Of a stretch of DNA of 64,000 nucleotides, positions 25,501-43,843 are shown in pieces. This DNA is from Bacillus sp. EB01 (GTDB lineage Bacteria; Bacillota; Bacilli; Bacillales; Cytobacillaceae): the NCBI RefSeq assembly GCF_000613125.1, contig NZ_HG964497.1, positions 2,137,130-2,201,129 on the forward strand. The letters run 5' to 3'. Within the stretch, counting starts at the first letter, position 1; every line of letters starts with the position of its first letter. The notes beneath the pieces are model-generated. The model was given only the letters and a program-made list of their open reading frames with translations. It was not told the origin of the DNA and did not search any database. The translations under genes and the position numbers were made by a program.

Positions 25501-25564
25501 TCTGCTCACCAGCTTTATCATTTATTTTTACATTTCACTTTATAAAATCGACTAAGAAGGTACC

Positions 25565-26971
25565 CTAAGCTTGTATGATTTCCTCACTTTTTCTTAGAGC
25601 TTCCGGCAGCCCTGTTAGCATGTAGGCCATATGGACAATTCCTTGCTCCAAGTCAGCAAGCCGGATGGATTCATTTGGTGCATGAGCCCTCGATTTCACC
25701 CAGCCAACGCCAGTACTGACGATGGGAAGTCCGAGTTCTTCCCCAAAAATATACATCGGCCCTGTTCCCACAGAATTCGGAGCCAGTACACAGCCAGCTT
25801 CATATACTTCATTTGCTGTCTTCATTACATGCTTGACGAAAGGATCGTTAAAATCCGAACGATATGCCTTTTGGCCATTCAGTAATGTAACTTCAACATC
25901 ACCGAAACCATTCTCAATCAAATGCTTTTTTACACAAGCCATAATATGGTCGGGATCCTGGCCAGGAACGAGCCGGCAATCGAGTTTTGCCTTTGCAAGC
26001 TTGGGCAGAACTGTTTTTGAGCCTTCGCCCGTATACCCGCTGACAATGCCGCATATCGTCATTGTCGGATCGAACACCATTGCCTCGCGCGGGTCTTGGC
26101 CCTTCGCTGCAGTAATCAGTGGCCTTTTTAGACCGTAAAGCCTCTGAGTTGCCTGCTCGTCGAATGGCAAAGACTTAACCGCATTGATCTCCTCTTCAGT
26201 AGGAGGTATGATCCCGTCAAAGAAGCCATCAACCAAAATCTCATTTTGTTCATTTCTCAATGTTGCCAGCGCCTGGACAAGCCGCCATGCCGCATTGTCT
26301 ATATAAGCGCCGACCGAGGAATGCATATCAATATCTGCCCCCTCACACGTCAGCTCAAGGTACGCCATCCCTTTAATGCCCGCGACCATGTTGATTCGCT
26401 CTGCTTCGTCCTTGCCGCCAAACTCCCAGATGCAGGCATCGGCTGCAAAAAGTTCCTTGTATTTTTTCAAATAGTGCTCAAGGTTTGGACTGCCGATTTC
26501 CTCTTCGCCTTCAATCAAAAATTTCACATTGCAAGGAAGGCCACCCATCTCCTTCAGTACCTTAATTGCCGTAAGCCTGGCAACAAGGTCGCCTTTGTTA
26601 TCCGCCACACCCCTTGCAAAAAGGGCGTCATTTTCTATTATCGGTATAAATGGATCTGACTTCCATTCATCAAGCGGTTCAGGCGGCTGGACATCATAAT
26701 GGTTGTAAAACAATAACGTCTTTCCTGTGTCCCCAAATTCCCCGGCGGCAAAAAATGCATATACAACCGGGTTTCCCCCAAGGTCATTCAGGATTCTAAC
26801 TTCTCCGCCGGCTTCCTCTATCATCTTAGCAACATAGTCGACTGTTTCTTGAATTCCGAAATTTTGAGCGGAAATCGACGGCAGCTTCAAGTATTCCGTT
26901 AATACGCCAAGCGCGGCAGTTACCTTTTCACTTGTTTTCTGTTTTATTTTTTCCAATAACGGTTGTTCCAT
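25565..26971 (-). CDS. M20-family metallopeptidase (dipeptidase type)
   Basis: The 468-aa protein has the M20 metal-binding layout: first His-x-Asp in LLFYNHYDVQPPEP near residue 92, bridging Asp in ARGVADNKGDL, the catalytic EGEEEIGSPN and a C-terminal HAPNES. The middle dimerisation lid is present. Length and motifs fit cytosolic dipeptidases or aminoacyl-carboxypeptidases. It has no signal peptide. It stands alone; substrate not predictable. Confidence 0.9.
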   Translation of the reverse strand: MEQPLLEKIKQKTSEKVTAALGVLTEYLKLPSISAQNFGIQETVDYVAKMIEEAGGEVRILNDLGGNPVVYAFFAAGEFGDTGKTLLFYNHYDVQPPEPLDEWKSDPFIPIIENDALFARGVADNKGDLVARLTAIKVLKEMGGLPCNVKFLIEGEEEIGSPNLEHYLKKYKELFAADACIWEFGGKDEAERINMVAGIKGMAYLELTCEGADIDMHSSVGAYIDNAAWRLVQALATLRNEQNEILVDGFFDGIIPPTEEEINAVKSLPFDEQATQRLYGLKRPLITAAKGQDPREAMVFDPTMTICGIVSGYTGEGSKTVLPKLAKAKLDCRLVPGQDPDHIMACVKKHLIENGFGDVEVTLLNGQKAYRSDFNDPFVKHVMKTANEVYEAGCVLAPNSVGTGPMYIFGEELGLPIVSTGVGWVKSRAHAPNESIRLADLEQGIVHMAYMLTGLPEALRKSEEIIQA

Positions 26972-27177
26972 TGTAAAACTCCCTTCTGGTCATATTTATT
27001 TCGATGCACGAAGGATAATTCCTCTTATAAAAAATACAATACTTTATTTGTATGCAGCAAAATTAGAAACCTGTCCTTTTAACGGCAAAACTCCTCGGAC
27101 ACCATGAAACTTCTCTCATCAATCCATTTGTGAAATTGGGTAAAGAAACTGTGAGACTTTAACTTATGACAAAAAAA

Positions 27178-27199
27178 TACCCAGAACATTGTCTGGGTA
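27178..27199 (-). terminator. Terminator after the AAA ATPase gene
   Basis: ACCCAGA (27179-27185) pairs with TCTGGGT (27192-27198), followed on the minus strand by a T-run, about 30 bp beyond the stop at 27229. Confidence 0.85.
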
Positions 27200-27228
27200 A
27201 GTAAAATGTTGTGCCGGTACAGTTTTAT

Positions 27229-27960
27229 CTACTTTAGCAGATGGCGCAGAAGCCGTTCTCTGTCTTCAAAAAACTGCTTCATAATGGAATAGTGGGGTGT
27301 TTCCTCAAGTGTTGTTTCGTTGATTCCCTCTTCGGTTATCTGAATGATTTTTGCACCTGGATAGGCCATAATGATTGGGGAATGAGTTGAGATAATAAAT
27401 TGGGATCCATCATGGACGAGGTCATCAATCCTTGCAAGAAATGACATCTGCCTTAGCGGAGACAAAGCTGCTTCAGGTTCATCCAAAATATAAAGCCCAT
27501 CACCTTGAAACCTTTCGTTAAAGGCTGCAAAGAAGGATTCACCATGGGACATCTTATGAAGTGAGGTGCCTCCATATGATTCGACTGCTTTAATTTGATC
27601 AATATTGGTCGCCAAGTTGTAGAAGGTTTCAGCCCTGAAGAAGAAATTGTCAGTCGGCCTATAGGGTCCTTTAACGAGCCGCAAATAATTATGCAAATCG
27701 GAATGCGAATCGTAATTGGAGAAATTAAAATTCATTGTTCCGCCTTCCGGATTGAATCCGTAAGCAACGGCAATTCCTTCCAGCAGTGTTGACTTGCCCA
27801 TCCCATTCTCTCCGACAATATAGGTCACACAGGAATCAAAGGTAATCTCCTTGAAATTCCGAATAATTGGCAGTGTAAACGGATAGCAGTCCTGGCCCGC
27901 CGCTTCCTCCTCTTTCAGCTGAATTTTCCTGATATATTGCGATTCCCATTCAAGTTTCAA
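27229..27960 (-). CDS. AAA/ABC-type ATPase, SMC-like (putative predicted ATPase)
   Basis: The 243-aa protein is a stand-alone ABC-class ATPase of the predicted-ATPase/RecF-like type: Walker A VGENGMGKST, a degenerate signature KMSHGESFFAAF, Walker B GLYILDEPEAALSP and the switch histidine ISTHSPII. There is no nuclease partner next to it, so it is not an obvious OLD or Lamassu-like defence pair. The start is the TTG at 27960, six bases after AAGGGGG; the longer upstream frame has no ribosome site. Cellular role unknown. Confidence 0.8.
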   Translation of the reverse strand: MKLEWESQYIRKIQLKEEEAAGQDCYPFTLPIIRNFKEITFDSCVTYIVGENGMGKSTLLEGIAVAYGFNPEGGTMNFNFSNYDSHSDLHNYLRLVKGPYRPTDNFFFRAETFYNLATNIDQIKAVESYGGTSLHKMSHGESFFAAFNERFQGDGLYILDEPEAALSPLRQMSFLARIDDLVHDGSQFIISTHSPIIMAYPGAKIIQITEEGINETTLEETPHYSIMKQFFEDRERLLRHLLK

Positions 27961-31372: not shown

Positions 31373-31415
31373 AACGAGGGGTCCACTTTACTTCTGGACC
31401 ACCCTCGTTTTTTTC
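31373..31415. terminator. Terminator after the DUF4395 gene
   Basis: AACGAGGG pairs with CCCTCGTT, with inner GTCCA/TGGAC pairing, followed by a T-run. Confidence 0.88.
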
Positions 31416-31545
31416 GTTATCATTCTTAAATATTTCTATCGCCCTAAGTAATAGAAGGGTTTTCCTTAATCATCTCACAGTTTTCATTAACCACTTAAAA
31501 ACCAATCTTACATAACTCCTCAGCCATATCTTCCAGGCTTCTCCC

Positions 31546-31606
31546 ACCCGTCCATCTCACACGGACAAAAACTGTAAAATGTCCACGATAGGGGTCTGAC
31601 CCCTGC
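31546..31606. repeat. Interspersed repeat D, copy 2
   Basis: GTCCATCTCACACGGAC hairpin followed by ATGTCCAC and AGGGGTCTGACCCCT. It lies just past the stop of the large permease gene. Confidence 0.8.
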
Positions 31607-31617
31607 ACTTTGCCCCC

Positions 31618-34179
31618 TCAAATACTCTCCTGCCTCAACCCGTCGATGATGTTTTGGGTTTTGATTTTGCGGCTGGAGTAGAGCATGGCGGATGTAACAA
31701 TTAGGAAAATGGCGATTGTTGCATAGGCTATGCTTGACCAGGGCAGCTCGAAGCCGTACTCAAAGGTGCTGCTTAAGGACAGATAGATGAGGTACATAAG
31801 GCCAATGCTGATTGGAAGACCGTAGGTTAGTGCCTTCACACCGTAAAAGATGCTTTCGTAATTCGTCATCTTACTGAACCCTTTAGGCGTCATCCCGACT
31901 GATTTCAGCATTGCGAACTCGCGCGTCCTCAGTGAAATGCTCGTTGAAATCGTATTGAGAATATTAGCGATGGAAATCAGACTGATCAAAACGATGAACC
32001 CATACGTGAATAGTGACATGAACAAAATAAGGTTATCGTTGTTTTGCCGCTGTTTATAAACGTTATAGATATGCAGCCCCTGCAAGTTCATTTCTTCTAT
32101 CTCTGCCTGAGTCTCAAGCGGATCCGTGCTTTTTACGACAAGATAATTATCATACTGGTTATCTAGTTTTGCAGCCAGTTGATCCAATATCTTTTCCGGA
32201 ACAAGAACCGGAACATCGCCCATTCCCGTTTGAATGCCCATTGGAGCCTCATCAACAAAACCAGCTATCGTCAACTTGCCGGCTGGCTCGCGGCTGCCTG
32301 TATCATAATTTGGAACACTGAGGTCCAGCGTATGTCCCACTTCAGTTTCAATACTCCGCTCTTCAATAAACTTCCCAGTCTCCCCATCCTGGTAGGTGGT
32401 ATTTTCAATTACAATGCCTGCAGGATTTTTGGGATTCGCAAACGTTGCAGGATTGACACCCGCTTTTTCGGCAACTGCTGCAAAACTTTTTTCATCAAGC
32501 CCGTAAAGGACCACGATATAGGGAACCTTTCCATCCTTCATCATGGACTTGTCGACCCTGCCCGGTTCCTGCATACTCTTGGGCAGCTGGTTCATTTCAA
32601 GATGAGTTTCCACTGAAAAAGGTTTAATCAGGCTATAATCGGTAACATGTTTCAAGCTTGAAAACGGCTTAAGCTGCTCGATTTGCCCATCACTAGCGAA
32701 GAATACCTTCATATCATAATCCACCTTTTCCTGTGACAGGACAAATGACTTTTTCAAGTTATCTGTGAAAAAGGATACTGTCAGAAAGAGGACAAGGCTG
32801 ATAACGAGTGAGAAAACAGTTGCCCGGTACCGCTTCTTGTTGCGTATAATATTCTTTAATCCGATTTCAGCTTCAATCCCGAACAGCCTGCGAACGAATT
32901 TCGAGGTTTTAACGCTTTTGCCAGTCAGCTTAACATCCTGGGTCTGGCGGATTGCATCAATCGCAGAAATCTTCGATGCCTTCCTCGCCGGCCAATACGT
33001 CGAAATAAAAATCGTCAGAATTGAAACAGCACAGGCAACCAGGATGCTCATCGGGGTTACCACAATGCGAAGCCGCTCTGATGTTTCAAATACCTCGCTA
33101 ATTAATGCATTACTAAACCAAAATGTTACAGCCAAGCCTGCCAGTCCCGCTAAAATGCCAAGCGGGATGCTGATGCCTCCAATGACGACACCTTCAAAAA
33201 AGACTGAATTACGTTTCTGCTTTTTGGTCGCCCCGACACTTGAGAGCATCCCAAGATGCCTGGCCCGCTCAGAGACACTAATGGCAAATGCATTGTAAAT
33301 CAGAGAAACAGACCCAATGACGATGATGGCCATGATGATGGCTGAAAGCGTATAGAGTGTCAGCCTAAGCTCACTATTGTCGGTTACCCCGTAGAGGCGA
33401 AGCAAAGTATCATTATACGAAACTTCCTTGATGCCAAGCTTATCTGCAAGTCTTTGCGTGTAGTCATACAAGTCGTTTGTAATGGAGGCAGCCACGACGG
33501 TAGCATGGACCGGTTTACTTTTTCCAATAGCGGTCTTATCAATATAGGTAAAGGCGGAATAGGCTGGTGACCACGAGTTTTCCCAGTTCGGAGTTTCAAT
33601 GAACCCGGTAATTGTATACTTTCCAGTGCCAGACTTCTCAAATGTTTCAATCAGCTTGTCGCCTTGCTTCTGATATGGGTCATTTTGGGTTAGCGGAGTT
33701 CCTTCCAATTTCCGATCGCCGAGTTCAAGATTCAGTGTGTCACCTATTTTATAGGTTTCTTGCAGCTCTTTGACCAGTACGATTTCATTTGGCGCTTTTG
33801 GAAATCGGCCTGCTTCGAGCTTAATTTGAAATTGTGAGAAGCCTTGCTCGCTGTAGCCTTTTAGAAAAAGAAACGGTTTTTCTCTTTTTGCGGTACTTTC
33901 CACAGGGGCAAAGCCGAAATCGCTGGACAGAATCAGCTTGTTCGTTTCCTTGTCATTTTCGATTGCTTCAAGCTGCACGGCATCGACATCTTTGTATAAA
34001 ACATGCCACTCGCCCTCATCCGCGATTGCATCCCGCTTCATTAAATCAAGGAAAGATACACCGAGCGTAGATACTGCGGTCAGCATGGCAACAGAGATGA
34101 TGACTCCGAAGATGGTGACAAGAGTTCTTCGCTTATTCTCCTTCAGATGCCGAACGGTCAATTTATTGACGATATTCAT
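31618..34179 (-). CDS. FtsX-type ABC permease, 853 aa
   Basis: This large permease contains two FtsX units: an N-terminal segment (TLVTIFGVIISVAML), an extracytoplasmic domain, then three segments around residues 275-400, and a second copy from about residue 450. That gives about eight membrane segments and two big outside domains, unlike the ten-TM BceB with one. It overlaps the ATPase gene by 4 bp, so they are coupled. With the kinase/regulator pair upstream it makes an envelope-stress or antimicrobial-peptide module. The substrate is unknown. Confidence 0.88.
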   Translation of the reverse strand: MNIVNKLTVRHLKENKRRTLVTIFGVIISVAMLTAVSTLGVSFLDLMKRDAIADEGEWHVLYKDVDAVQLEAIENDKETNKLILSSDFGFAPVESTAKREKPFLFLKGYSEQGFSQFQIKLEAGRFPKAPNEIVLVKELQETYKIGDTLNLELGDRKLEGTPLTQNDPYQKQGDKLIETFEKSGTGKYTITGFIETPNWENSWSPAYSAFTYIDKTAIGKSKPVHATVVAASITNDLYDYTQRLADKLGIKEVSYNDTLLRLYGVTDNSELRLTLYTLSAIIMAIIVIGSVSLIYNAFAISVSERARHLGMLSSVGATKKQKRNSVFFEGVVIGGISIPLGILAGLAGLAVTFWFSNALISEVFETSERLRIVVTPMSILVACAVSILTIFISTYWPARKASKISAIDAIRQTQDVKLTGKSVKTSKFVRRLFGIEAEIGLKNIIRNKKRYRATVFSLVISLVLFLTVSFFTDNLKKSFVLSQEKVDYDMKVFFASDGQIEQLKPFSSLKHVTDYSLIKPFSVETHLEMNQLPKSMQEPGRVDKSMMKDGKVPYIVVLYGLDEKSFAAVAEKAGVNPATFANPKNPAGIVIENTTYQDGETGKFIEERSIETEVGHTLDLSVPNYDTGSREPAGKLTIAGFVDEAPMGIQTGMGDVPVLVPEKILDQLAAKLDNQYDNYLVVKSTDPLETQAEIEEMNLQGLHIYNVYKQRQNNDNLILFMSLFTYGFIVLISLISIANILNTISTSISLRTREFAMLKSVGMTPKGFSKMTNYESIFYGVKALTYGLPISIGLMYLIYLSLSSTFEYGFELPWSSIAYATIAIFLIVTSAMLYSSRKIKTQNIIDGLRQESI

Positions 34180-34859
34180 GGCCGGATCACCTCGTCCCTG
34201 GCAATGCGGCCATCCTCGATTGCAATCACCCGGTCAGCCTGAAGCGCAATTCGCTCATCATGGGTAATCACAATCAGCGTCTGCTTGTATGTCTTATTGA
34301 ACATTTTCAGCAATTCCATAATTTCTTCACTGTTTTTCGAGTCAAGATTGCCGGTCGGTTCATCGGCCAACAGCAGAGCCGGATTGCTGATCAATGCCCG
34401 GCCGATTGAGACCCGCTGCTGCTGGCCCCCAGAAAGCTGATTCGGCAAATGGCCCATTCGGTTCTCCAAGCCAAGAATTGATGAAATCTCCTGCAAATGC
34501 TTGCCATCAACCTTCTGTTCATCAAGCAGCATCGGCAGAGTCATATTTTCTTCAACAGACAGAATCGGAATCAGGTTATAAAACTGATAAATCAGCCCGA
34601 TTTGACGGCGCCTGAAAATCGCAAGCTGCGTTTCATCAAGCTTATATATATCGGTATTATCAATCAGCACCAGGCCATCTGTGGGACGGTCAACACCGCC
34701 AAGCATATGAAGCAGCGTCGATTTGCCCGAACCAGACGGGCCGACAATTGCGACAAACTCCCCTTTTTTCACCGAAAACGACACATTGTCAAGTGCCCGG
34801 ACCGCGGTTTCGCCCTTCCCATACACTTTAGACAGATTCTCTATCTTTAAAATTTCCAT
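34176..34859 (-). CDS. ABC exporter ATP-binding protein (MacB/LolD type) of the two-component-linked module
   Basis: The 227-aa ATPase has Walker A GPSGSGKST, Q-loop YQFYNLIPILSV, signature LSGGQQQR, Walker B LLLADEPTGNLDS and VITHDERI. It energises the 853-aa permease it overlaps. It is preceded by a promoter with a four-block operator at 34908-34946 that also occurs ahead of the glycosylation cassette at 43.2 kb. It is separated from the kinase gene by about 230 bp, so it is a separate transcription unit under activator control. Confidence 0.93.
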   Translation of the reverse strand: MEILKIENLSKVYGKGETAVRALDNVSFSVKKGEFVAIVGPSGSGKSTLLHMLGGVDRPTDGLVLIDNTDIYKLDETQLAIFRRRQIGLIYQFYNLIPILSVEENMTLPMLLDEQKVDGKHLQEISSILGLENRMGHLPNQLSGGQQQRVSIGRALISNPALLLADEPTGNLDSKNSEEIMELLKMFNKTYKQTLIVITHDERIALQADRVIAIEDGRIARDEVIRP

Positions 34860-34891
34860 ACGATAACCCCCAACATGTTCTTGATGGCTTC

Positions 34892-34897
34892 AGTATA
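34892..34897 (-). promoter_or_regulatory. -10 box of the ABC transporter promoter
   Basis: TATACT on the minus strand lies 10 bp downstream of the operator at 34908 and about 33 bp before the ATG at 34859. There is no good -35 hexamer 17 bp upstream, as expected for an activator-dependent promoter. Confidence 0.65.
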
Positions 34898-34907
34898 TCT
34901 GCCTAAA

Positions 34908-34946
34908 ATGACTCTTCCGTGACTCTCACGTGACAGTTTAGTCACT
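34908..34946 (-). promoter_or_regulatory. Four-block, 11-bp-period operator ahead of the ABC transporter
   Basis: Plus-strand hexamers ATGACT (34908), GTGACT (34919), GTGACA (34930) and GTCACT (34941) are each 11 bp apart. The identical arrangement occurs at 43225-43263. Direct repeats with one-turn spacing are typical of OmpR/PhoB-family response regulators, and such a regulator is encoded at 36095-36778. Confidence 0.8.
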
Positions 34947-35088
34947 TAAGAGCTTTTTTTTGGAAAAATTGGTCGATACCATGCAGTCACCATCTCAAGC
35001 TGAATACGCAAAGCTTTTTCACAAAAAGGCCGGCCCCGCCCTTGTCACTGGCAAAGCCCGCCTAAATAGCTTTTTCACACTCCGGGCA

Positions 35089-36102
35089 CTACACTACCTG
35101 CTTATAAAACTTGACCGTGAATGTAGTTCCTTTCCGTTCTTCGCTTTTAACCTCTATGTCTCCGTTCTGGCTTTTTACAATCGAATATGCCATCGCAAGC
35201 CCAATCCCGACGCTGTCCTCACCGGCATTTTCGCCTTTATAAAAACGCTTGAAAATATAAGGCAGGTCCTTTTTCGAAATTCCCTTGCCATTATCTGAAA
35301 TCGATATCGCTGTGTACAATGGGTTTTCGGAATACGAAATCGCTATAGTACCGCCTTCACCCGTATGCTCTACACAATTTTTCAAAATATTGATCAATGC
35401 CTCGGTGGTCCACTTCATATCTCCCTGAAAAGATGTAGCTTCATCGCCACTAACGCTTAGTGTCTGCTGCTTGATTTCAATCGGAATCAGCATTGGTTCA
35501 ACAACCTTGTGCAGCAAATAGGCAACCTTTACATGCTCCCTCTTAAACTGAGCCGTCCCAGCGTCGATTTTTGACAGCTTCAACAACGATGAAACAAGCC
35601 ATTCTATCCTTTCAAGCTGGACCTGGATATTTCTTGTGAACTCTTCTCGTTTCGGTTCACTCAAATTCGCATCGCTTAGCAAGTCCGCCATCATCATCAT
35701 GGATGTCAACGGTGTTTTTAGCTGATGCGAGATATCAGAAATCGCGTCGGTAAGCTTCAGTCTATCTTGCTGCAAATGAGAGCCATGCTCCGCCAGCATA
35801 AGTGTCACTTTATAAATATCACTTTTTAAAACACTCAACTCTCCCTCACTGTTGTCGCGGACGTCAAGCTTATAATCCCCGCTTGAAATCTGACGCAAGT
35901 AGCCTGAAAGCTTACTGATTTCCCTGTAGCGCCAAACAGTAAAAACAACACTGCCGCCAGTCAGTAGTGCCGAAACGAGTAAAATGAGACTTGCGACTTG
36001 AATCGAAAACAGCGCCCAGCCCATTCCGGCCGCCAAAATCCCAAACAGGCAGCTCAGACCAAAAAACACCCTAAATTCCCGGTTGCGGAGCAAGTTAATC
36101 AC
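35089..36102 (-). CDS. Sensor histidine kinase, short-loop (intramembrane-sensing-like)
   Basis: The 337-aa kinase has two N-terminal membrane segments with almost no loop between them, a HAMP-like linker (LSGYLRQISSGDYKLDV), an H-box ISHQLKTPLTSMMM, N-box INILKNCVEHT, and G-boxes DNGKGISKKDL and GIGLAMAYSIV. With so little outside sequence it probably senses through the membrane or through its partner transporter. I place the start at the GTG at 36102, which overlaps the regulator's stop; an earlier ATG would overlap by 70 bp. Confidence 0.9.
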   Translation of the reverse strand: MINLLRNREFRVFFGLSCLFGILAAGMGWALFSIQVASLILLVSALLTGGSVVFTVWRYREISKLSGYLRQISSGDYKLDVRDNSEGELSVLKSDIYKVTLMLAEHGSHLQQDRLKLTDAISDISHQLKTPLTSMMMMADLLSDANLSEPKREEFTRNIQVQLERIEWLVSSLLKLSKIDAGTAQFKREHVKVAYLLHKVVEPMLIPIEIKQQTLSVSGDEATSFQGDMKWTTEALINILKNCVEHTGEGGTIAISYSENPLYTAISISDNGKGISKKDLPYIFKRFYKGENAGEDSVGIGLAMAYSIVKSQNGDIEVKSEERKGTTFTVKFYKQVV

Positions 36103-36778
36103 CCACCTTATACCCAAGGCCGCGCACAGTCTTGATAATGGTCGGGCTTTGCGGGTTGTCCTCAAGCTTTTCCCGCAACCTTTTTATGTACACAGTCAGC
36201 GTATTGTCATTCACGAAATCGCCGGCCACATCCCAAATCCGCTCAAGCAGCTGTTCCCGAGTCAGAACACGTCCGATATTATTGGCAAAAATAAGGAACA
36301 GCCTGTATTCGAGGGCAGTGACCAGTACTTCCTGTCCATTTTTATAAACCTTGCCTTCCAGTGTGTTTACCTTTACAGTACCGACTTCAATAATCGGCTT
36401 GGCCTGCATGTGCTTGTGGTAGCGGCGGAGTACCGACTTGATTCGCGACATAAGCTCCCTGACACGGAACGGCTTTGTAATATAATCATCCGCGCCCATA
36501 TCAAGCCCCATGACAACATTTACTTCATCATCCAGGGCTGTCAGGAAAATAACGGGTTTATCACTCCACTTCTTCACAAGACTGCACAGGTCATAGCCGC
36601 TCCCATCCGGAAGCGACAAGTCGAACAAGCATAAATCAATTTCATCAAGACGTTCGGCTATCACTTTTTTGGCAGCCAGGGCATTCTCGCAAAGAATTGT
36701 CTCGTATTCTTCCATCTGCAGTGAATACTCAAGCCCCGCCGCAATCGCCCGATCATCTTCAACCAATAAAATCTTCAA
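36095..36778 (-). CDS. OmpR-family response regulator
   Basis: The 227-aa protein has a receiver domain (KILLVEDDRAIAAG, phosphoacceptor in LCLFDLSLPDGSG, VIFLTALDD, ITKPFRV) and an OmpR-type winged helix (ALEYRLFLIFANN, LTVYIKRLREKLEDN, VRGLGYKV). I choose the TTG at 36778 because the protein then starts with the family's KILLVEDD. It overlaps the kinase gene. It is the best candidate to bind the 11-bp direct repeats at 34908 and 43225; its own upstream region lacks that motif. Confidence 0.92.
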   Translation of the reverse strand: MKILLVEDDRAIAAGLEYSLQMEEYETILCENALAAKKVIAERLDEIDLCLFDLSLPDGSGYDLCSLVKKWSDKPVIFLTALDDEVNVVMGLDMGADDYITKPFRVRELMSRIKSVLRRYHKHMQAKPIIEVGTVKVNTLEGKVYKNGQEVLVTALEYRLFLIFANNIGRVLTREQLLERIWDVAGDFVNDNTLTVYIKRLREKLEDNPQSPTIIKTVRGLGYKVGD

Positions 36779-36837
36779 CCCTATCACCCTACTCTAGCAA
36801 TCTGTCTTCTTTTCTATCTACTATACCGTAAAAAGGC

Positions 36838-36893
36838 AAAAAAAGGGACGGTTCTACTTAGCCAAAGCAAGGCAGAGACCGTCCCTAATTGCG
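36838..36893. terminator. Hairpin between hydrolase and response-regulator genes
   Basis: AGGGACGGT pairs with ACCGTCCCT around a long loop. It resembles a common short Bacillus repeat and could end transcription arriving from the right, but T-runs are poor. Confidence 0.5.
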
Positions 36894-36916
36894 CCCAAAA
36901 GCGGGACGCTGCAATT

Positions 36917-37750
36917 TTATAGTTTGCTAACCTTCTCTTTTAAAAATTCCTCGACAATGGCGTTGAATTTTTCGCTATGCTCCCAGAACATCAAGTGCCC
37001 GCCCAGCACCTTAACGTCCGTTTTTGGGGTCAGCTTTTGAAGATAGGCTGTGGCTGTTTCGGCCCAATGCTCTGCGACAATAGCCAGAGTCGGTACCGCT
37101 TCGCTGGATTGTTTTGCTTCCTCCCGATAGTCAGAAAACATCCCACTCGCAAACAAATTGGCGGCAATATAATATGGGGTTTTCATTGATTGTTCAACAA
37201 TCCAGGTCAACTCCTCCTCTTTCAGCTCTCTCTGGACCATGACGCCCGTTGTGTAACCGGTAATGAACTCCCTTTGCCCCTGCGGATTCCTCAAGTACGC
37301 ATTGTAGGCAGCACCAATATCATTTAGAGAACCCTCGACCCAATCACCTTCGTGGATACTCAAAGATTTTGGGGACATATCGACAAACACAAGTGACTTC
37401 ACATTTTCGGTTCCAAACTGCTTCACATATTCCCAGATAGTGAGAGCACCGAATGACCAGCCAACAAGAGTCGCATTTTTAACATTGAGGGCCTCAAGCA
37501 CCTTGGCCAAATCAGCTCCATGCGTGACATAGTCATTTCCGTGAAGAGACATGGAAGACCGCCCATGGCTGCGTGGATCCAGGATAATTGTCCGGTTGGT
37601 TTTTGAGAAATGTTCAAGCTGTTTGGAAAACACCTCTGTTGTAAACGTAAATCCCGGGATAAACACAATCGGTTCCCCGCTCCCGGAATCTTGGACAAAC
37701 AATTCAACACCAGGTTCTACTTCAATATACTTGCCATTTCGAGAAGTCAT
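36917..37750 (-). CDS. Alpha/beta hydrolase
   Basis: The 277-aa protein has the oxyanion region VFIPGFTF, nucleophile elbow LVGWSFGAL (Ser near residue 109), acidic residue after LAIVAEHW and catalytic His in VLGGHLMFWEH. It looks like the non-haem haloperoxidase/esterase branch. No signal peptide. Substrate unknown. It stands alone between the response regulator and sstT. Confidence 0.85.
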   Translation of the reverse strand: MTSRNGKYIEVEPGVELFVQDSGSGEPIVFIPGFTFTTEVFSKQLEHFSKTNRTIILDPRSHGRSSMSLHGNDYVTHGADLAKVLEALNVKNATLVGWSFGALTIWEYVKQFGTENVKSLVFVDMSPKSLSIHEGDWVEGSLNDIGAAYNAYLRNPQGQREFITGYTTGVMVQRELKEEELTWIVEQSMKTPYYIAANLFASGMFSDYREEAKQSSEAVPTLAIVAEHWAETATAYLQKLTPKTDVKVLGGHLMFWEHSEKFNAIVEEFLKEKVSKL

Positions 37751-38123
37751 TTTTCCTATCCCTCCATCCGATTATCTTTTCTCACTATGCATATTTCGAT
37801 AAAGGTTCATTTAATACCTTCCACTGGAAAAAACAAACCCTTTGAAAAAAAGTAATATAGTAGTAGTATTTTAAAAGACTATTTATACGCACACTCATAA
37901 TATTAACTGCCCTAACTGTCCTTACAGCGCGGACAAAATGAGGCTTTTGTCCACAACAGGGGTCTGACCCCTGTAAGTTATTACCTATGATGAATATCAT
38001 TGTAATCTATCGAAATTTTCAATATAATGAATAAAAATTATTCTCGCCTTAAATCGGCATAGTTCTACAGCAAGAAAATAGAAAAACACTGCGGTGTATT
38101 GCACCAGCAATCAGGAGGAAGGT
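37751..38123. other. Intergenic stretch upstream of sstT
   Basis: No coding sequence is supported. It contains repeat D copy 3 (37916-37975) and the promoter region of sstT; the ribosome site CAGGAGGAAGG is at 38112-38122. Confidence 0.6.
37916..37975. repeat. Interspersed repeat D, copy 3
   Basis: GTCC/GGAC hairpin, then TTTGTCCACAACAGG leading into the GGGGTCTGACCCC palindrome. Confidence 0.8.
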
Positions 38124-39362
38124 ATGAGAAATCTAGTCAAGAAGTGGAATGACATCAGTCTTGTTAAGCAAATCATTATCGGTCTTGCCGTTGGTATTCT
38201 TCTCGCCATAACAATACCAAAAGCCGCCCAGCCAGTAGCGCTGTTCGGTACCCTATTTGTCGGTGCGTTAAAAGCTGTTGCACCGATACTCGTGCTTTTC
38301 CTGGTCATGGGAGCCATTGCCCAGCATAAGAGCGGCAAGAAAACAAATATGAAATCCATTATTGTCCTGTACGCTTTGGGAACATTTTTGGCTGGCCTTA
38401 TCGCCGTAATAGTTAGCTTCATCTTCCCGGTAAGCATCACACTTGCCACCGGCTCCCAGGAGTTGCAGGCACCCGGCGGCGTTTCCGAAGTCCTTAAGTC
38501 TTTGCTGCTGAATGTGGTGGATAACCCGGTTAATGCACTTATCAAAGCAAATTACATCGGCATTCTCGCTTGGGCTATCGTCCTTGGCTTTGCTTTAAAA
38601 AATGCAAAAGATACAACCAAATCATTGATTTCCAACTTTTCAGATGCCATTTCCAAGGTGGTAACCTGGGTCATTAAGTTTGCTCCGCTTGGCATTATGG
38701 GTCTTGTTTTTGAATCAATAACAACAAACGGTCTGGAATCGCTTCTTAGCTATGGGAAATTGATCGCGATTCTCCTTGGCTGCATGTTTTTTGTGGCATT
38801 GGTGGTCAACCCGATTATCGTGTTCGCAGCAACCCGCCAGAATCCGTATCCGCTCGTTCTACAATGCTTGAGAGAAAGCGGCATTACTGCCTTCTTCACA
38901 CGAAGCTCGGCAGCAAACATTCCTGTAAACATGAAGCTTTGTGAAAAATTGGGTTTGAACAAAGATACGTATTCCGTGTCGATTCCGCTGGGCGCCACCA
39001 TCAACATGGCTGGTGCAGCGGTAACAATTTCAGTTTTGACCCTTGCTGCGGTTCATACGCTGGGTATCAATGTTGATATCCCGACAGCAGTTCTGCTTAG
39101 CGTCTTGTCTGCGGTCTGTGCCGCAGGAGCATCCGGAGTTGCCGGCGGATCTCTGCTCTTGATTCCACTAGCCTGCAGCCTGTTCGGTATTCCTAACGAA
39201 ATAGCCATGCAGGTCGTTGGTGTCGGTTTTATCATCGGTGTAATTCAGGATTCTGTTGAAACAGCCCTCAACTCATCGACTGACGTCCTCTTCACCGCTG
39301 CCGCAGAGCACAGGGAGCGCAGACTCGAAGGCACTCATCTAAAAGTAAAAAAAGCGGTATAG
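38124..39362 (+). CDS. sstT: Serine/threonine:Na+ symporter SstT
   Basis: The 412-aa protein is a DAACS-family carrier with the SstT features: hairpin-loop serine-rich motif [13 protein letters not shown], the substrate/Na+ site [11 protein letters not shown] and a C-terminal [21 protein letters not shown] (written here in parts: [22 protein letters not shown]). It imports serine and threonine with Na+. The ATG at 38124 follows a strong AGGAGGAAGG site. It has its own terminator. Confidence 0.93.
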
Positions 39363-39373
39363 AATTTTTAGGA

Positions 39374-39405
39374 GCCCTCAATCATCACGATTGAGGGCTT
39401 TTTTT
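39374..39405 (+). terminator. Terminator after sstT
   Basis: GCCCTCAATC (39374-39383) pairs with GATTGAGGGC (39389-39398), followed by TTTTTTT. Confidence 0.92.
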
Positions 39406-39722
39406 ACTCAACTGAAGTCCTTTAAAAAAACCCCAGATTTCCTTACAACTATAATAAGACTCTCCCACAACAACTTTAGGCTAACCTTACTATTACTTTT
39501 TTATGACAAAGGCTTATTTTACGAAAAGAAGGGAAAGAGATGGACGAACAAGGGTTTAAGTTCAAACCTTGTAGATGTAACCGGATTTTATCCCGGCCAA
39601 CTCAATGAGAAATTAATAGACCTTGCATTAAAGCAGTTGAACCCTCATAAAATTTACTTCAAGGAACATTAACCTTCCTCTCATCCTCTGGCTATTTTTG
39701 AAAAAGAAAGGGTGTGGCAGGA
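39406..39722. other. Intergenic stretch before the FbpA-like gene
   Basis: A frame is open here but has no ribosome site and no recognisable protein features; its last 30 codons (TGFYPGQLNEKLIDLALKQL) look protein-like, so a decayed gene is possible. No regulatory site was recognised. Confidence 0.35.
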
Positions 39723-39872
39723 ATGTCCATTCTAAGAGAAATGGTTGAAGCCAAGCGCAACCACTATTTTAAGCTTTTGAAGAAATCAGGACTGGTTCAA
39801 AATGGTACAGCAGATGAGTACACACTTACAGAAGTACTCGAAGTATATAAAAAGTGGAAAGGCCGCCGCTAA
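39723..39872 (+). CDS. FbpA-like small basic protein, 49 aa
   Basis: A 49-residue protein, MSILREMVEAKRNHYFKLLK and on, with a basic helix and a C-terminal LTEVLEVYKKWKG. The pattern (charged helix, short loop, LTxxE helix) resembles Fur-regulated basic protein A of B. subtilis, an iron-sparing factor. AAAGGGTG lies upstream of the ATG. I see no Fur box in front, so iron control is not shown. The assignment is tentative. Confidence 0.55.
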   Translation: MSILREMVEAKRNHYFKLLKKSGLVQNGTADEYTLTEVLEVYKKWKGRR

Positions 39873-39924
39873 TTTTCGGGAACCAGCCATTTAAAACCTT
39901 TCTCCCTCTCCAGCCCCCAAAATA

Positions 39925-39960
39925 AAAAGCTCGTAGACCAGATTCGCCTACCGAGCTTTA
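39925..39960. terminator. Terminator after gtrA
   Basis: AAAGCTCG and CGAGCTTT form a stem around TAG/CTA-paired inner bases at 39925-39959, just beyond the gtrA stop at 39969. Confidence 0.8.
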
Positions 39961-39968
39961 TTACCTGT

Positions 39969-40373
39969 TCATGCATAAAGCCTTTCCCGAAAAACAACAC
40001 TTCTTTGCAATAGATAATTCAGTACGGTATATAATCCCGTACTAAATAATACCTTTCCATTTGTGACAACTGTTTCTGAAAAATAATCCCCAGCAGTCCA
40101 TTCAATTACCATGCTGCCCAGCTGATACGAAACAACATAGCAGAACAGAATGACACAAACAAACCGGACAATGCTCCATAAACCAGCTTCTTTGCTCCTG
40201 AATGTAAAACTCCGGTTCAAAACAAAGCTGACTCCCGCCCCAACCGTATTCCCTATGAACGTCGAGACCCAGTAGGACAATCCGGCTCCGTGCAAAAGCA
40301 GGAACATAATCGACAACCCGACCAGTGTATTGATCACTCCAACGACTAAGAAACGAATAAACTCGAACTTCAT
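39969..40373 (-). CDS. GtrA-family flippase (GtcA-like)
   Basis: The 134-aa protein has four membrane segments and the GtrA pattern: FIRFLVVGVINTLVG at the N-terminus and VSFVLNRSFTFRS in the centre. Members flip undecaprenyl-phosphate-linked sugars to the outer face. It overlaps the glycosyltransferase gene by 4 bp. With that enzyme and the YkoS-like protein it forms a three-component envelope glycosylation system like CsbB-GtcA-YfhO. Confidence 0.9.
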   Translation of the reverse strand: MKFEFIRFLVVGVINTLVGLSIMFLLLHGAGLSYWVSTFIGNTVGAGVSFVLNRSFTFRSKEAGLWSIVRFVCVILFCYVVSYQLGSMVIEWTAGDYFSETVVTNGKVLFSTGLYTVLNYLLQRSVVFRERLYA

Positions 40374-41365
40374 CGCCGGCCCATAGACATCAATTTTTTC
40401 GCTGGAAGTTCCCTGTTAGAAAATGTATCAATTTCAACGGCATATTTCGGCCTGCCTTTAACCTCGTGATAAATTTTACCGATATACTCTCCGATGATAC
40501 CAATCCCCAAAAGCTGCAGGCCTCCGACAAACCAAATCGACAAAATCAGCGATGCCCAGCCTGATTCAGTATTTCCCATCCACTCCTGTACTAGCGCATA
40601 GCCCCCCGCAACCGAACTGAGAATAACTGAAAGGAAACCGAGCAGCGTTACGAGCCGTATCGGCGCAATACTAAACGACGTGATCCCTTCCATTGCGAAG
40701 GCGAGCATTTTTTTCAACGGATACTTGGATTCCCCAGCAAAGCGCTCCTTCCTGTCATAATAGACAACAGTCGATTTAAATCCAACAAGCGGTACCAGCC
40801 CGCGTAAAAACACATTTGCTTCCTTGTATTTGAAAAGCTCATCGAGTGCCCGCCTGCTCATCAATCGGAAGTCTGCGTGATTCGGAACAAGCTTGATGCC
40901 GATTTTCTCCATGAACCGGTAGAAGCCCAGGGCAGTTGTCCTTTTGAAAAATGTATCCGTATCACGTTTATCTCTGACTCCATAGACGATGTCATAGCCT
41001 TCGCGGAACCTCTCAACAAATTGCCTGATTACATTCACATCGTCCTGAAGGTCTGCATCGATAGAAACAACACAGTCAGATAACTTATTGGCTGTCTCCA
41101 GCCCGGCAATCAAAGCCTTCTGGTGGCCGACATTTCTGGCCAGCTTTAACCCAGTCACACAATGGTTGCCTCTGCTTTCTTCTTCAATCAATTCCCAAGT
41201 CCGGTCCCGGCTGCCGTCATCAACGAACACCACCTTGCTGTCTGCCGAAATCAGTGAATCCTTAATCATTCCTCTTATAACCCCAGTCAGTTGGGATGTC
41301 GTTTCCTTTTAAACTTCTTCCTCGTTATAGCATGGAACAACAATTGTCAAAACTGGCTTATTCAC
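40370..41365 (-). pseudogene. GT2 undecaprenyl-phosphate glycosyltransferase (GtrB/CsbB type) with a nonsense codon at position 19
   Basis: The natural start is the GTG at 41365, overlapping the stop of the upstream gene and preceded by AGGAGTGG. The N-terminus reads NKPVLTIVVPCYNEEEV, the canonical GT2 opening, then hits TAA at 41311-41309 and continues in the same frame as KETTSQLTGVI into VFVDDGSRDRTW, DADLQDD (metal site) and two C-terminal membrane segments. A single T to A change in a Leu codon (TTA to TAA) explains this. Restart at the ATG at 41269 would lose the first nucleotide-binding strand, so the product should be inactive unless read through. Confidence 0.85.
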
Positions 41366-43064
41366 CAGGAACCACTCCTTCAGTTACGTGATAAAGATAA
41401 ATTCTCCATGCAGATTCATTGTTGTCGAATACTTTTTCAAGCTTCATACCGTTCTCTTCTGGATTCTTGACCGGGACTGCCGAGAAAATGTATTCCCCTC
41501 CCAATTCCTTAAATACTTTAGTATTTAATTCAAGATTCTCTATTTCTTTTTTCGTTGTCTTTTTAAATTCATAGTGTTTCCCGAGCTCCGCGACAAAGAT
41601 ATAACACCTGCCGCCCCAGGTATCGAAATAATCCTCAATAATAGCGTTTTTCTCAAGCTCCTTCGAAATAATTTCACGGAACCGGTGCTTGTATTCGAGC
41701 GAATAAAAATTATTGTACGTATCCAGCGTGTAAAATCCGTTGTACTGAGCGATTGCCGGATGGATACCGATGCTTGCGACCCGGTATGATTCCTGCGACT
41801 TGCCAATAAAATCACGGATATCCTCAAACTGATCAACAGCATAAAACTGTTTGAATGAAGGCCTGTGTCCGTACTCGTTCTCGCCATTATTGTAAAAAAC
41901 AACGGCAATCTGCAGAGCCAGCGCAACCCCTGCAGCCTTTTTCCAAACACCGCCCTTTTGCCATAAAACATAGGCACCAACCGCAAACATCATATAAATA
42001 ATCAGCGGGCGAAGGAAATGAAACCGTGAAAAATTGAAGGTTTTTAACAACGATATCTCTTCCTTGATTGGATGCCAGCCTTTGTAAAACCAAAACGAAT
42101 ACCAGATGGACAGGACAATGTTAAGGACAAACAAGTATGTAAACCGTTTTTCGTTAACACCATGGGTTTTTCTGGCTGCTATCCATATCAGCACCAGGAA
42201 CGACAGCGGTACAATCACGTATGTATGAAGCGTAAGTACATGGTTGTGGCCAAAGAAATAATTTTTCCCAATTAACATGATTGTCTGCCAAAACGTGTTA
42301 TCCGTATAATCAAATTCATTCCGGCTTGTCGGTTCTTCCGGTAGCACCAATGAAAGAACAAGCCGGTATTCAACAAGCAAATACATGATTGTCATAAACG
42401 CAATGCTTGCAAAAAAGGTCCAGTTCCAGCTTTTCTTAACGAGCACATCCCTTAGCCACAACAATCCCATTGCAGCCAGGAAGAAGAAAAACCCGAGCAC
42501 AAAGCTGGAATAGAGCGGCAGCAAGAAAAGCGTCAGCCATTCCTTCCATGAATGCCTGCCATCCCTTATGTTGAGGAAAGCCCATAATGCTAGCGGCATA
42601 CCTAACGTACTCAGCATCCCCGACGGCCAGAAAGGAGTTAGTGCGAAAGCAAGTGCAACCCAAACACTGATTGGAAATGCATTCCTCTCCTTTATGAAAT
42701 GCCTCGAAAGTAATAAGTACATCCCGATAAATGCCACAATCCGTGTAATCGCCTGGCTGAGCGCATATGCGAGCATCGATGGAAACAGGTGATGCAGCCA
42801 CTGAATACCGCTAAACTCAGTTCCATATGTATTCCGCGGCAGACCGTTGATGATTTGTGGAATCACCGCATCAGTTGCCCCGAACAGCTCCCCGCTTTCG
42901 CGTAATACCTTATACCAGCTAATATTTGAATCAAGGTTGTCATGAATCCGCATATGCGCGTCCTCACCGAGCACAAACAGTGGCGACAAATACAATGCCA
43001 GCAATATCCCGGCAACCCATAAATGAACCTTTTCTTTTTTTAAAATTGCCCCCCGTATCATCAT
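41358..43064 (-). CDS. ykoS: YkoS-like DUF6044 polytopic membrane protein (putative GT-C glycosyltransferase)
   Basis: About 568 residues with 10-12 membrane segments and a soluble C-terminal domain (from about residue 430). The first outside loop holds LGEDAHMRIHDNLDSNISWY with paired acidic residues, the usual catalytic place in GT-C enzymes such as YfhO. It resembles B. subtilis YkoS, whose partner YkoT is a GT2 enzyme. It likely transfers a lipid-linked sugar to a surface polymer. The start is the ATG at 43064, coupled to a nine-codon leader ORF whose stop overlaps it; a TTG at 43079 is possible. Confidence 0.8.
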   Translation of the reverse strand: MMIRGAILKKEKVHLWVAGILLALYLSPLFVLGEDAHMRIHDNLDSNISWYKVLRESGELFGATDAVIPQIINGLPRNTYGTEFSGIQWLHHLFPSMLAYALSQAITRIVAFIGMYLLLSRHFIKERNAFPISVWVALAFALTPFWPSGMLSTLGMPLALWAFLNIRDGRHSWKEWLTLFLLPLYSSFVLGFFFFLAAMGLLWLRDVLVKKSWNWTFFASIAFMTIMYLLVEYRLVLSLVLPEEPTSRNEFDYTDNTFWQTIMLIGKNYFFGHNHVLTLHTYVIVPLSFLVLIWIAARKTHGVNEKRFTYLFVLNIVLSIWYSFWFYKGWHPIKEEISLLKTFNFSRFHFLRPLIIYMMFAVGAYVLWQKGGVWKKAAGVALALQIAVVFYNNGENEYGHRPSFKQFYAVDQFEDIRDFIGKSQESYRVASIGIHPAIAQYNGFYTLDTYNNFYSLEYKHRFREIISKELEKNAIIEDYFDTWGGRCYIFVAELGKHYEFKKTTKKEIENLELNTKVFKELGGEYIFSAVPVKNPEENGMKLEKVFDNNESAWRIYLYHVTEGVVPGE

Positions 43065-43090
43065 GTAAAAATCACACAATCTTTCTTCAT
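43061..43090 (-). CDS. Nine-codon leader ORF with strong ribosome site, coupled to ykoS
   Basis: The ATG at 43090 is placed seven bases after GTGGGGG and encodes MKKDCVIFT, then TGA. The TGA overlaps the ATG at 43064-43062 (ATGA). The ykoS-like start itself has no good ribosome site, so coupled translation through this leader is the simplest reading. A frameshift separating the leader from the main frame is an alternative. Confidence 0.5.
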   Translation of the reverse strand: MKKDCVIFT

Positions 43091-43208
43091 TTGAAATCCC
43101 CCACCCCTGTTCTTTCTCTTTGTATAACCATCTTATCTAGTAATAATGAATTTTCCTCTAGCAGAAATCTTAAGAAATTATGAAGATTTCCAAATTCTTC
43201 TTTCCCAT

Positions 43209-43214
43209 ATTATA
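43209..43214 (-). promoter_or_regulatory. -10 box of the glycosylation cassette promoter
   Basis: TATAAT on the minus strand lies exactly 10 bp downstream of the four-block operator, the same distance as in the ABC transporter promoter. No -35 hexamer is seen at the right spacing. Confidence 0.7.
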
Positions 43215-43224
43215 CCTATATTAA

Positions 43225-43263
43225 GTGACTTTCAAGTGACTCTATAGTGACAATTTATTCACT
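43225..43263 (-). promoter_or_regulatory. Four-block, 11-bp-period operator ahead of the glycosylation cassette
   Basis: Plus-strand hexamers GTGACT (43225), GTGACT (43236), GTGACA (43247) and TTCACT (43258) are spaced 11 bp apart, with TTTA before the last block as in the copy at 34908-34946. The two sites also share block order. Confidence 0.8.
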
Positions 43264-43391
43264 TTACATTCGAGTGAGATTACAGTTGGAGCATAGTGTT
43301 GGCTAACCAAACATTTTTGGGAAAGTAAGGTCCATAAAAAAAGCTCTCCACATGCCGAAATAGCAAAGGAAAGCTTTTATTCTAAAAACTA

Positions 43392-43496
43392 TTAATCTAT
43401 ATCAATTAAATTGAGCTCCGGATGATCAAACGGATACCGCTCTCTTTTGCTTTCCAATAATTCTTCAAGCAATCCCCTCCAACCCCGGAAATATTT
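43392..43496 (-). pseudogene. Possible C-terminal gene remnant, 34 codons
   Basis: An open stretch between two stops reads KYFRGWRGLLEELLESKRER and then YPFDHPELNLIDID before TAA. It looks like the end of a real protein, but there is no start codon with a proper ribosome site, so it is probably a relic or a very small ORF. No family recognised. Confidence 0.3.
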
Positions 43497-43560
43497 CTAT
43501 TATAACTAATCGCTATGAACACTATTGGAAAAGGCAATGTAAGAGCCGTAAAACAAAAAT

Positions 43561-43600
43561 AGCCAGACTGCCTGCCAGTTTTCACTGGCTGTCTGGCTAT
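43561..43600 (-). terminator. Terminator after the 79-aa gene
   Basis: AGCCAGAC pairs with GTCTGGCT, with inner GCCAGT/ACTGGC pairing, directly beyond the stop at 43604. Confidence 0.85.
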
Positions 43601-43603
43601 ACC

Positions 43604-43843
43604 CTATCCTCTGCTGCGTTCCCGCCTATTGCGCTTCCGTTCCCTAAGAACTGTCGGGATCTCAAGAATTTCCTCATTATATTGATACTTTAAAATATTG
43701 TTTTTAATATAGTCATCAATTGCCACCTGAATCATGACTTCTTGATTCACTTTGCTAATCCCCTTCAGCTTTGGATCGTTGAACATACCTTCATACTTTT
43801 TCCGGAGAGTCCTCTTCAACAGCCCTAGCTCAATGGTTCCCAT
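43604..43843 (-). CDS. Hypothetical basic protein, 79 aa
   Basis: A soluble, helical, basic protein beginning MGTIELGLLKRTLRKKYEGM and ending in an Arg-rich tail (RERKRNRRERSRG). GGGAGGTG lies before the ATG. No family recognised. The Arg-rich end suggests contact with nucleic acid, but that is only a composition argument. It is a single-gene unit with a strong terminator. Confidence 0.6.
   Translation of the reverse strand: MGTIELGLLKRTLRKKYEGMFNDPKLKGISKVNQEVMIQVAIDDYIKNNILKYQYNEEILEIPTVLRERKRNRRERSRG

Follow-up and report, generated by a model that had tools for sequence, protein, structure and literature searches.

A putative 39-bp operator links a regulator-kinase-ABC module to a DUF6044 glycosylation cassette in Bacillus sp. 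EB01

We analyzed a 64,000-nucleotide stretch of DNA from Bacillus sp. EB01 (the window), which carries on its minus strand a four-gene module (a regulator, a short histidine kinase, a LolD-like ATPase and a MacB/YbbP-like permease, the latter two forming an ATP-binding cassette, ABC, operon) and, 8 kilobases (kb) off on the same strand, a DUF6044-GT2-GtrA operon. One 39-base-pair (bp) operator stands upstream of both the ATPase gene (site 1) and the DUF6044 gene (site 2), and the best explanation of the evidence as a whole, to which we assign a probability of roughly 0.82, is that the neighbouring regulator would act at this operator on both the ABC operon and the DUF6044 cassette. What was observed is the operator itself, conserved, standing before both gene sets and occurring where the regulator occurs. 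The features concerned are as follows.

34908..34946, minus strand: site 1, operator of the ABC operon, in gene orientation AGTGAC-N5-TGTCAC-N5-AGTCAC-N5-AGTCAT (pattern and profile)
34892..34897, minus strand: -10 box TATACT serving the ABC operon, located 10 bp beyond the proximal block (sequence reading)
43225..43263, minus strand: site 2, operator of the DUF6044 cassette, AGTGAA-N5-TGTCAC-N5-AGTCAC-N5-AGTCAC (pattern and profile)
43209..43214, minus strand: -10 box TATAAT of the DUF6044 cassette, overlapped by an alternative TTGAAA-N17-TAATAT (sequence reading, promoter scan)
36095..36778, minus strand: OmpR-family response regulator, with a TTG start placed by alignment (Pfam Response_reg and Trans_reg_C)
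35089..36102, minus strand: histidine kinase, 337 amino acids (domain matches and hydropathy)
34176..34859, minus strand: ABC ATPase, LolD/MacB-like (profile matches)
31618..34179, minus strand: duplicated permease, 853 amino acids, with MacB_PCD and two FtsX matches (Pfam), its predicted fold nearest E. coli YbbP
41358..43079, minus strand: DUF6044 (YkoS-like) membrane protein (Pfam PF19510, E 4e-242)
40370..41365, minus strand: GT2 glycosyltransferase with an in-frame TAA at 41311-41309 (Pfam, frame reading)
39969..40373, minus strand: GtrA-family protein (Pfam)

Architecture, rarity and distribution of the operator

Read along the plus strand, the four blocks are ATGACT, GTGACT, GTGACA and GTCACT at site 1 and GTGACT, GTGACT, GTGACA and TTCACT at site 2, set at an 11-bp pitch with TTTA ahead of the last block, and the -10 boxes TATACT (34897-34892) and TATAAT (43214-43209) both lie on the minus strand 10 bp past the promoter-proximal block. 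An earlier note on this DNA had claimed exactly these sequences, positions and spacings, and all of them held on re-reading, the two sites being the only matches in the whole genome. That note had further described a four-block operator; the shared blocks stand, but four equal direct repeats are ruled out, since the gene-distal block reads GTGA(C/A) in gene orientation, the inverse of GTCAC, and its fourth base is G, the base needed for an inverted half-site, in 112 of 113 distinct sites. The distal block is therefore an inverted copy and the first two blocks form a dyad. As read from these sites, the operator is a dyad GTGAC-N6-GTCAC followed after 5 or 6 bp by a direct repeat AGTCAC-N5-AGTCAY, with 10 bp to the -10 box, and at the module promoters the consensus in gene orientation is AGTGACTAAATTGTCAC-N5/6-AGTCAC-N5-AGTCAT-TTTAG-N-CAGA-TATACT. 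A spacing scan that allowed a middle spacer of 4-7 bp and 9-11 bp to the -10, and slightly penalised values other than 5 and 10, picked a middle spacer of 5 or 6 bp and a distance of 10 bp in all 79 module sites.

A hexamer resembling a -35 box (at least 4/6 matches, 16-18 bp from the -10) was present at one of 117 distinct sites and missing at the other 116, as expected if the regulator replaces the -35 at an activator-dependent promoter, and the promoter scan found no good -35 hexamer at site 1. PhoB/OmpR-type regulators activate from a site abutting the -10, and the present sites share with that type their tandem half-sites repeated every 11 bp, the last of them 10 bp short of the -10, as well as the want of a good -35 at site 1; they differ in that the distal pair is inverted and sits 5 or 6 bp from the proximal pair.

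Scanning the whole window genome (G000; 5,282,259 bases) with the strict four-block pattern at up to 3 mismatches returned only sites 1 and 2, both with 0 mismatches, and a reversed-pattern control returned 0 matches there and 0 across 193 family genomes. We also built a sequence-only profile (R1) from 31 module promoters, leaving out all sites of the window genome and of its sister genome G005. This profile recovered site 1 at E 2.2e-14 and site 2 at E 1.1e-11 with no third site in the window genome at E<=1, gave E 6.6e-14 and 2.9e-10 in G005, and found nothing better than 0.06 in G007, a genome of the same genus that lacks the regulator.

The operator also follows the regulator across genomes. 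Among the eight genomes of the genus, a regulator orthologue (97%), a close DUF6044 copy and both sites all occur in G000 and G005 only, while the other six hold neither regulator orthologue nor operator; paralogues near 40% identity are present in all eight. At the family level the regulator was found at >=70% identity in 58 of 193 genomes (61 at E<=1e-60 minus G018, G028 and G029, which reach 48-50%; fragments at contig ends were counted). The strict pattern occurred in 47 of the 193, all 47 among those 58 carriers, and reading the promoters of the remaining 11 showed a site in every one (in ten of them the middle spacer is 6 bp long, and in G066 the first block has changed), so that the apparent absence of the motif in these 11 was an artefact of the fixed pattern and the operator is present in 58/58 regulator-bearing genomes. 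None of the 135 family genomes without the regulator contained the strict pattern. In the scan of related genomes that had been proposed as a check, the motif tracks the regulator (58/58 against 0/135). A looser three-block pattern at 3 mismatches matched one regulator-less genome (G032), and its reversed control gave 3 matches in the 193 genomes; we therefore treated the extra 3-mismatch matches in G032, G038 and G097 as background (profile E 0.013 for the G097 place and 0.03 for that in G038, G032 lying outside that search). The R1 search covered 46 genomes, 45 of them among the 58 carriers, and in all 45 the best match was 5.9e-11 or better.

Because regulator and transporter travel together, tracking alone cannot tell the regulator from the module. 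In G165 (L106, 4474-15336), an insertion with a transposase-like gene (identified by eye) and others separates the kinase and ATPase genes, and the operator has stayed with the ABC genes, at the ATPase gene, after the split from regulator and kinase. The DNA-contact segment of the regulator, DVAGDFVNDNTLTVYIKRLREKLED, is identical in 13/13 aligned sequences, the window's included, an invariance that fits a frozen operator.

Beyond the family, a permease-profile search of named genomes yielded 461 relatives, of which the best 80 loci were examined; they come from Rossellomorea, Neobacillus, Mesobacillus, Metabacillus, Paenibacillus, Brevibacillus, Sporosarcina, Desulfosporosinus and others. The operator lies within 200 bp of the ATPase start in 79 of these 80 (<=2 mismatches to a loose pattern) and about 1.1 kb upstream in the last (L265), so that all 80 transporter loci carry it. 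Of 397 genomes drawn from the order, 78 had a profile match at E<=1e-4, as had 37 of 398 drawn from the class (G000, G202 and G211 being in both sets). Judged from this distribution, site 1 belongs, as its operator, to a conserved four-gene module, and its link to ABC genes is old and widespread. The earlier claim of a single OmpR/PhoB-type operator tied to the neighbouring regulator is supported by this comparative evidence, and both cassettes carry the operator.

Site 2, the DUF6044 cassette and competing explanations

Between G000 and G005, the 55-bp site 2 region differs at 4 positions, all in spacers and none in the blocks or the -10, and the 60-70 bp distal to it are far more diverged. 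Of the parts of a three-component glycosylation cassette, a GT-C membrane transferase is provided by the DUF6044 match (the GT-C label for the YkoS type is given in an excerpt of PMC5836110) and a flippase by GtrA, and both frames are intact in the window genome; the GT2 gene has its Pfam match and a PgfS-like similarity below the curated cut-off. Overlapping the region where DUF6044 starts (window ~43060-43092, minus strand) is a 9-codon frame that may serve as a leader or for coupling.

Several observations weigh against regulation of this cassette through site 2. Site 2 is known in G000 and G005 only, which are close relatives and may share it by descent. DUF6044 occurs in 167 of the 193 family genomes, and none of the strong profile matches in the other regulator-bearing genomes searched lies at a DUF6044 gene. 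The six DUF6044 copies closest to that of the window, which belong to a different genus of the family, and one more distant copy have no such site upstream. At site 2, and at some module sites, the TTTAG-N-CAGA common between the last block and the -10 is absent, and a shifted reading, TTGAAA-N17-TAATAT, matches a sigma-A promoter at 9/12. Counted from the GTG that overlaps the DUF6044 stop, the 19th GT2 codon in the window genome is an in-frame TAA (41311-41309) where the G005 frame is open; this may reduce what the cassette can do in this strain, or it may be a sequencing error. The regulon of ABC export plus envelope glycosylation that the earlier note proposed keeps its ABC link, but the glycosylation link was seen in two genomes only; by the refuting condition that the note had itself set, absence of the motif in relatives that keep the regulator and both targets, the link fails at the more distant DUF6044 genes of the regulator-bearing genomes searched. 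No DUF6044 relative lies in the fetched flanks (up to 10 kb) of the 80 named transporter loci either.

The rival that survives best, though unlikely, is that site 2 is recognised but useless here, the cassette being in decay and its operator a remnant of earlier regulation. The GT2 stop, with its open counterpart in G005, is what such decay would leave; site 2 nevertheless keeps all four blocks and the -10, the DUF6044 and GtrA frames are undamaged, and a local error of sequencing or assembly could account for the stop. We consider it improbable that site 2, or the pair of sites, is bound by a different OmpR-type regulator and that the neighbouring one is incidental. The window genome does encode at least 4 other OmpR-type regulators, 37-42% identical to that of the module, and cross-binding of related regulators to like boxes is described for PsdR and ApsR in an excerpt of PMC10858260, but the operator is present where the module regulator is (58/58 against 0/135 under the strict pattern in the family), and paralogues of ~40% identity occur in all eight genus genomes, yet six of these have no operator. 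Very improbable, in our view, is repression at site 2 by occlusion of a constitutive sigma-A promoter. The promoter scan does find TTGAAA-N17-TAATAT overlapping the site 2 blocks, and the earlier statement that both promoters lack a -35 hexamer holds for site 1 and as a rule but is qualified at site 2 by this shifted reading; shuffles, however, give 1.4 matches of that grade by chance, the 10-bp spacing from site 2 to TATAAT is that of the module promoters, and 116/117 distinct sites are without a -35-like hexamer. Chance or compositional resemblance of the two sites can be dismissed, given 0 control matches in the genome and in 193 genomes, a profile E of 1.1e-11 and the retention of site 2 in G005.

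Much of the window matches G007 in order, and two separate segments that hold our genes do not.

31412..36924, no strand: regulator-kinase-ABC module segment, no counterpart in the matching region of G007 (genome comparison)
39858..43605, no strand: DUF6044 cassette and site 2 segment, no counterpart in the matching region of G007 (genome comparison)

The hydrolase and transporter genes between them have G007 counterparts, and we accordingly rejected a gain of module and cassette as one island. Window positions 25526-27236, holding a 468-amino-acid frame, also lack a G007 counterpart, and with other such stretches unmatched the joint absence of module and cassette is suggestive at most. The G+C content of both segments is near the window mean. 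The DUF6044 protein matches copies from another genus of the family (among the fetched loci) at up to 68.5%, against 57-60% for its own genus outside G005, so separate acquisition of the cassette is possible. With site 1 kept across many Gram-positive bacteria and site 2 seen in two close relatives only, the distribution would fit a sensor that has lately come to control a second gene set.

Module proteins, known systems and a proposed mechanism

The regulator has a receiver and a winged-helix Trans_reg_C domain (Pfam E 1.3e-22 and 4.3e-25), as expected of the OmpR/PhoB type, and its best PDB matches by sequence are RegX3 and MtrA. Hydropathy of the kinase gives one hydrophobic stretch, residues 10-58 of 337, ahead of the catalytic domains and with room for two helices, and on this reading it is a kinase without an extracellular sensing domain, as in Bce-type modules. 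The predicted permease structure (mean pLDDT 76.5, pTM 0.64) has two large, mostly non-helical domains between its helices; a fold search of the PDB placed YbbAP best (E 2.7e-19, TM 0.55) and BceABS next (E 3.2e-13, TM 0.35), and a profile search aligned the first half with YtrF (E 4.6e-12). BceB gave no sequence match to the permease, and a BceB-like permease with one large extracellular loop is not what we found.

The module thus shares with Bce-type systems a regulator, a kinase without extracellular domain, an ATPase and a large permease encoded together, and a regulator-type site before the transporter genes (80/80 named loci, binding there being predicted). It differs in that the permease is of a duplicated MacB/YbbP-like rather than BceB type, and the operator includes, as a second half, a direct repeat at a constant 10 bp from the -10. 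Given the permease type we do not class it as a Bce module, and by analogy alone it may work like one; in passages of PMC7828314, BceS-type intramembrane-sensing kinases form a sensory complex with the transporter. The 'ABC export' of the earlier note is not established, and the module looks more like one for sensing and target protection. An excerpt of PMC10858260 gives the consensus AnnTTACnAnnnnGTnAG for PsdR and ApsR promoters, which shares the skeleton TnACnAnnnnGTnA with the distal dyad here, and the additional targets of such systems, dlt and mprF, serve to modify the envelope. E. coli YbbAP, B. subtilis YtrEF and MacB are alike in permease fold; YtrBCDEF differs in that, according to part of PMC7828314, it is under the GntR-type repressor YtrA and no two-component system.

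Turning to the cassette, GT2 and GT-C type (YkoS) genes are shared with B. subtilis YkoST, CsbB-YfhO and YkcCB and with Listeria GtlAB, and the present case differs from YkoST-type systems in having a GtrA gene in the operon and a regulator that comes with an ABC module. The link had been presented as previously unmade; two-component control of a YkoST-type cassette is already known in kind, since an excerpt of PMC5836110 puts the YkoGH two-component system in control of the B. subtilis ykoST operon and calls the target of YkoS and YkoT unknown. Two-component/ABC modules that have a regulator box ahead of the transporter genes are likewise a known kind. For the module, the combination, the operator and the target set we found no description in the titles and abstract openings of the open-licence papers that our searches listed.

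For the neighbouring regulator acting at both sites, we propose the following sequence of events. The ABC permease would sense a wall- or carrier-directed compound, probably one targeting the cell wall or lipid carrier, and would probably pass the signal to the kinase, which would phosphorylate the adjoining regulator (36095-36778). The regulator would then bind the 39-bp operator as two dimers, one on the distal dyad and one on the promoter-abutting direct repeat, with limited freedom (5 or 6 bp) between them, and activate sigma-A polymerase from a set distance of 10 bp upstream of the -10 box. Ancestrally it would have acted on the module's own ABC operon, giving positive feedback on sensor and resistance transporter, and in the window lineage the same signal would raise both the transporter and the sugar decoration of a wall polymer. 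Binding, dependence on phosphorylation, activation rather than repression and the signal are all steps that we infer from sequence.

Other genes behind the operator

To look beyond the ABC operons, we opened the genomes with at least two strong profile matches (for G747 and G918 the second site only) and eight with one, and found 22 operator sites besides the ABC-operon copies; the counts below are uncontrolled for enrichment, most single-match genomes being unopened and related genomes repeating the same gene. VanZ genes stand at 8 of the 22, in seven genomes and four families, one weakly (G041, G046, G576 twice, G747, G867, G928 and, weakly at E 6.6e-5, G918; L302:5635-6552, L303:6065-6985, L325, L326, L327, L328, L330, L337), and one VanZ gene each in G576 and G867 is followed by ATPase and permease genes, the G867 frames being broken. 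DUF6044 accounts for two sites (G000, G005), a VanY and a PASTA-domain protein for one each (G264), an extracytoplasmic function (ECF) sigma factor for one (G066, E 4.6e-6) and the module's own regulator-kinase genes for one (G251). Two further sites precede an acyltransferase and two an ABC-2 transporter (G216, G259), and three a protein type of 243-244 amino acids with no Pfam match and, by eye, a signal-like start (G216, G259 twice). These last three classes make up an enlarged operator-bearing set in G216 and G259 (L306, L307, L309, L310, L312, L313). The remaining site is a strong copy (E 8.8e-11) before an apparently decayed locus in G126 (L104/L305). In G251 (L317), the second operator copy lies ~0.6 kb upstream of the regulator gene with a 97-amino-acid frame between, and autoregulation is possible from this placement.

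Envelope-looking genes (VanZ, DUF6044, acyltransferase, VanY, PASTA) thus occupy 14 of the 22 sites, which suggests a regulon for envelope stress whose effectors differ from lineage to lineage. For VanZ domains, an action on lipid II head groups has been proposed (in part of PMC12419801), and YkoST-type cassettes are described as using undecaprenyl-phosphate sugars (in a portion of PMC11081497); by analogy with these reports, a shared theme of lipid-carrier chemistry among the targets is a reasonable idea. Carried further, and as a tentative proposal to which we give slightly less than an even chance, the regulon would defend the lipid-carrier (undecaprenyl-phosphate/lipid II) cycle across several Gram-positive orders, joining a sensing core of regulator, kinase and YbbP-like ABC transporter to lineage-swapped effectors that converge on the same chemistry, namely VanZ (three families, weakly a fourth), VanY, a PASTA-domain protein, a membrane acyltransferase, an ECF sigma factor and the undecaprenyl-linked glycosylation cassette.

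If this is true, one DNA word would assign targets to a two-component/ABC module from Bacillus relatives to Paenibacillus, Brevibacillus and Desulfosporosinus, and would tie orphan YkoS/DUF6044 glycosylation cassettes, which have no known acceptor, and VanZ proteins, whose role is unsettled, to one envelope-stress signal, offering a direct test of when and why these are made. The regulator would have gained new targets while its operator and DNA-contact residues stayed fixed, and, with the operator readable from genomes, regulon members and perhaps the signal would be predictable species by species.

Apart from the operator, the window contains a 13-bp palindrome, GGGGTCTGACCCC, in 4 exact copies within its 64 kb (30827, 31591, 37959, 60625) and once with 1 mismatch (62930), where shuffles give 0.02 matches at <=1 mismatch, and a sequence like it occurs in G007 at the place where the module has no counterpart.

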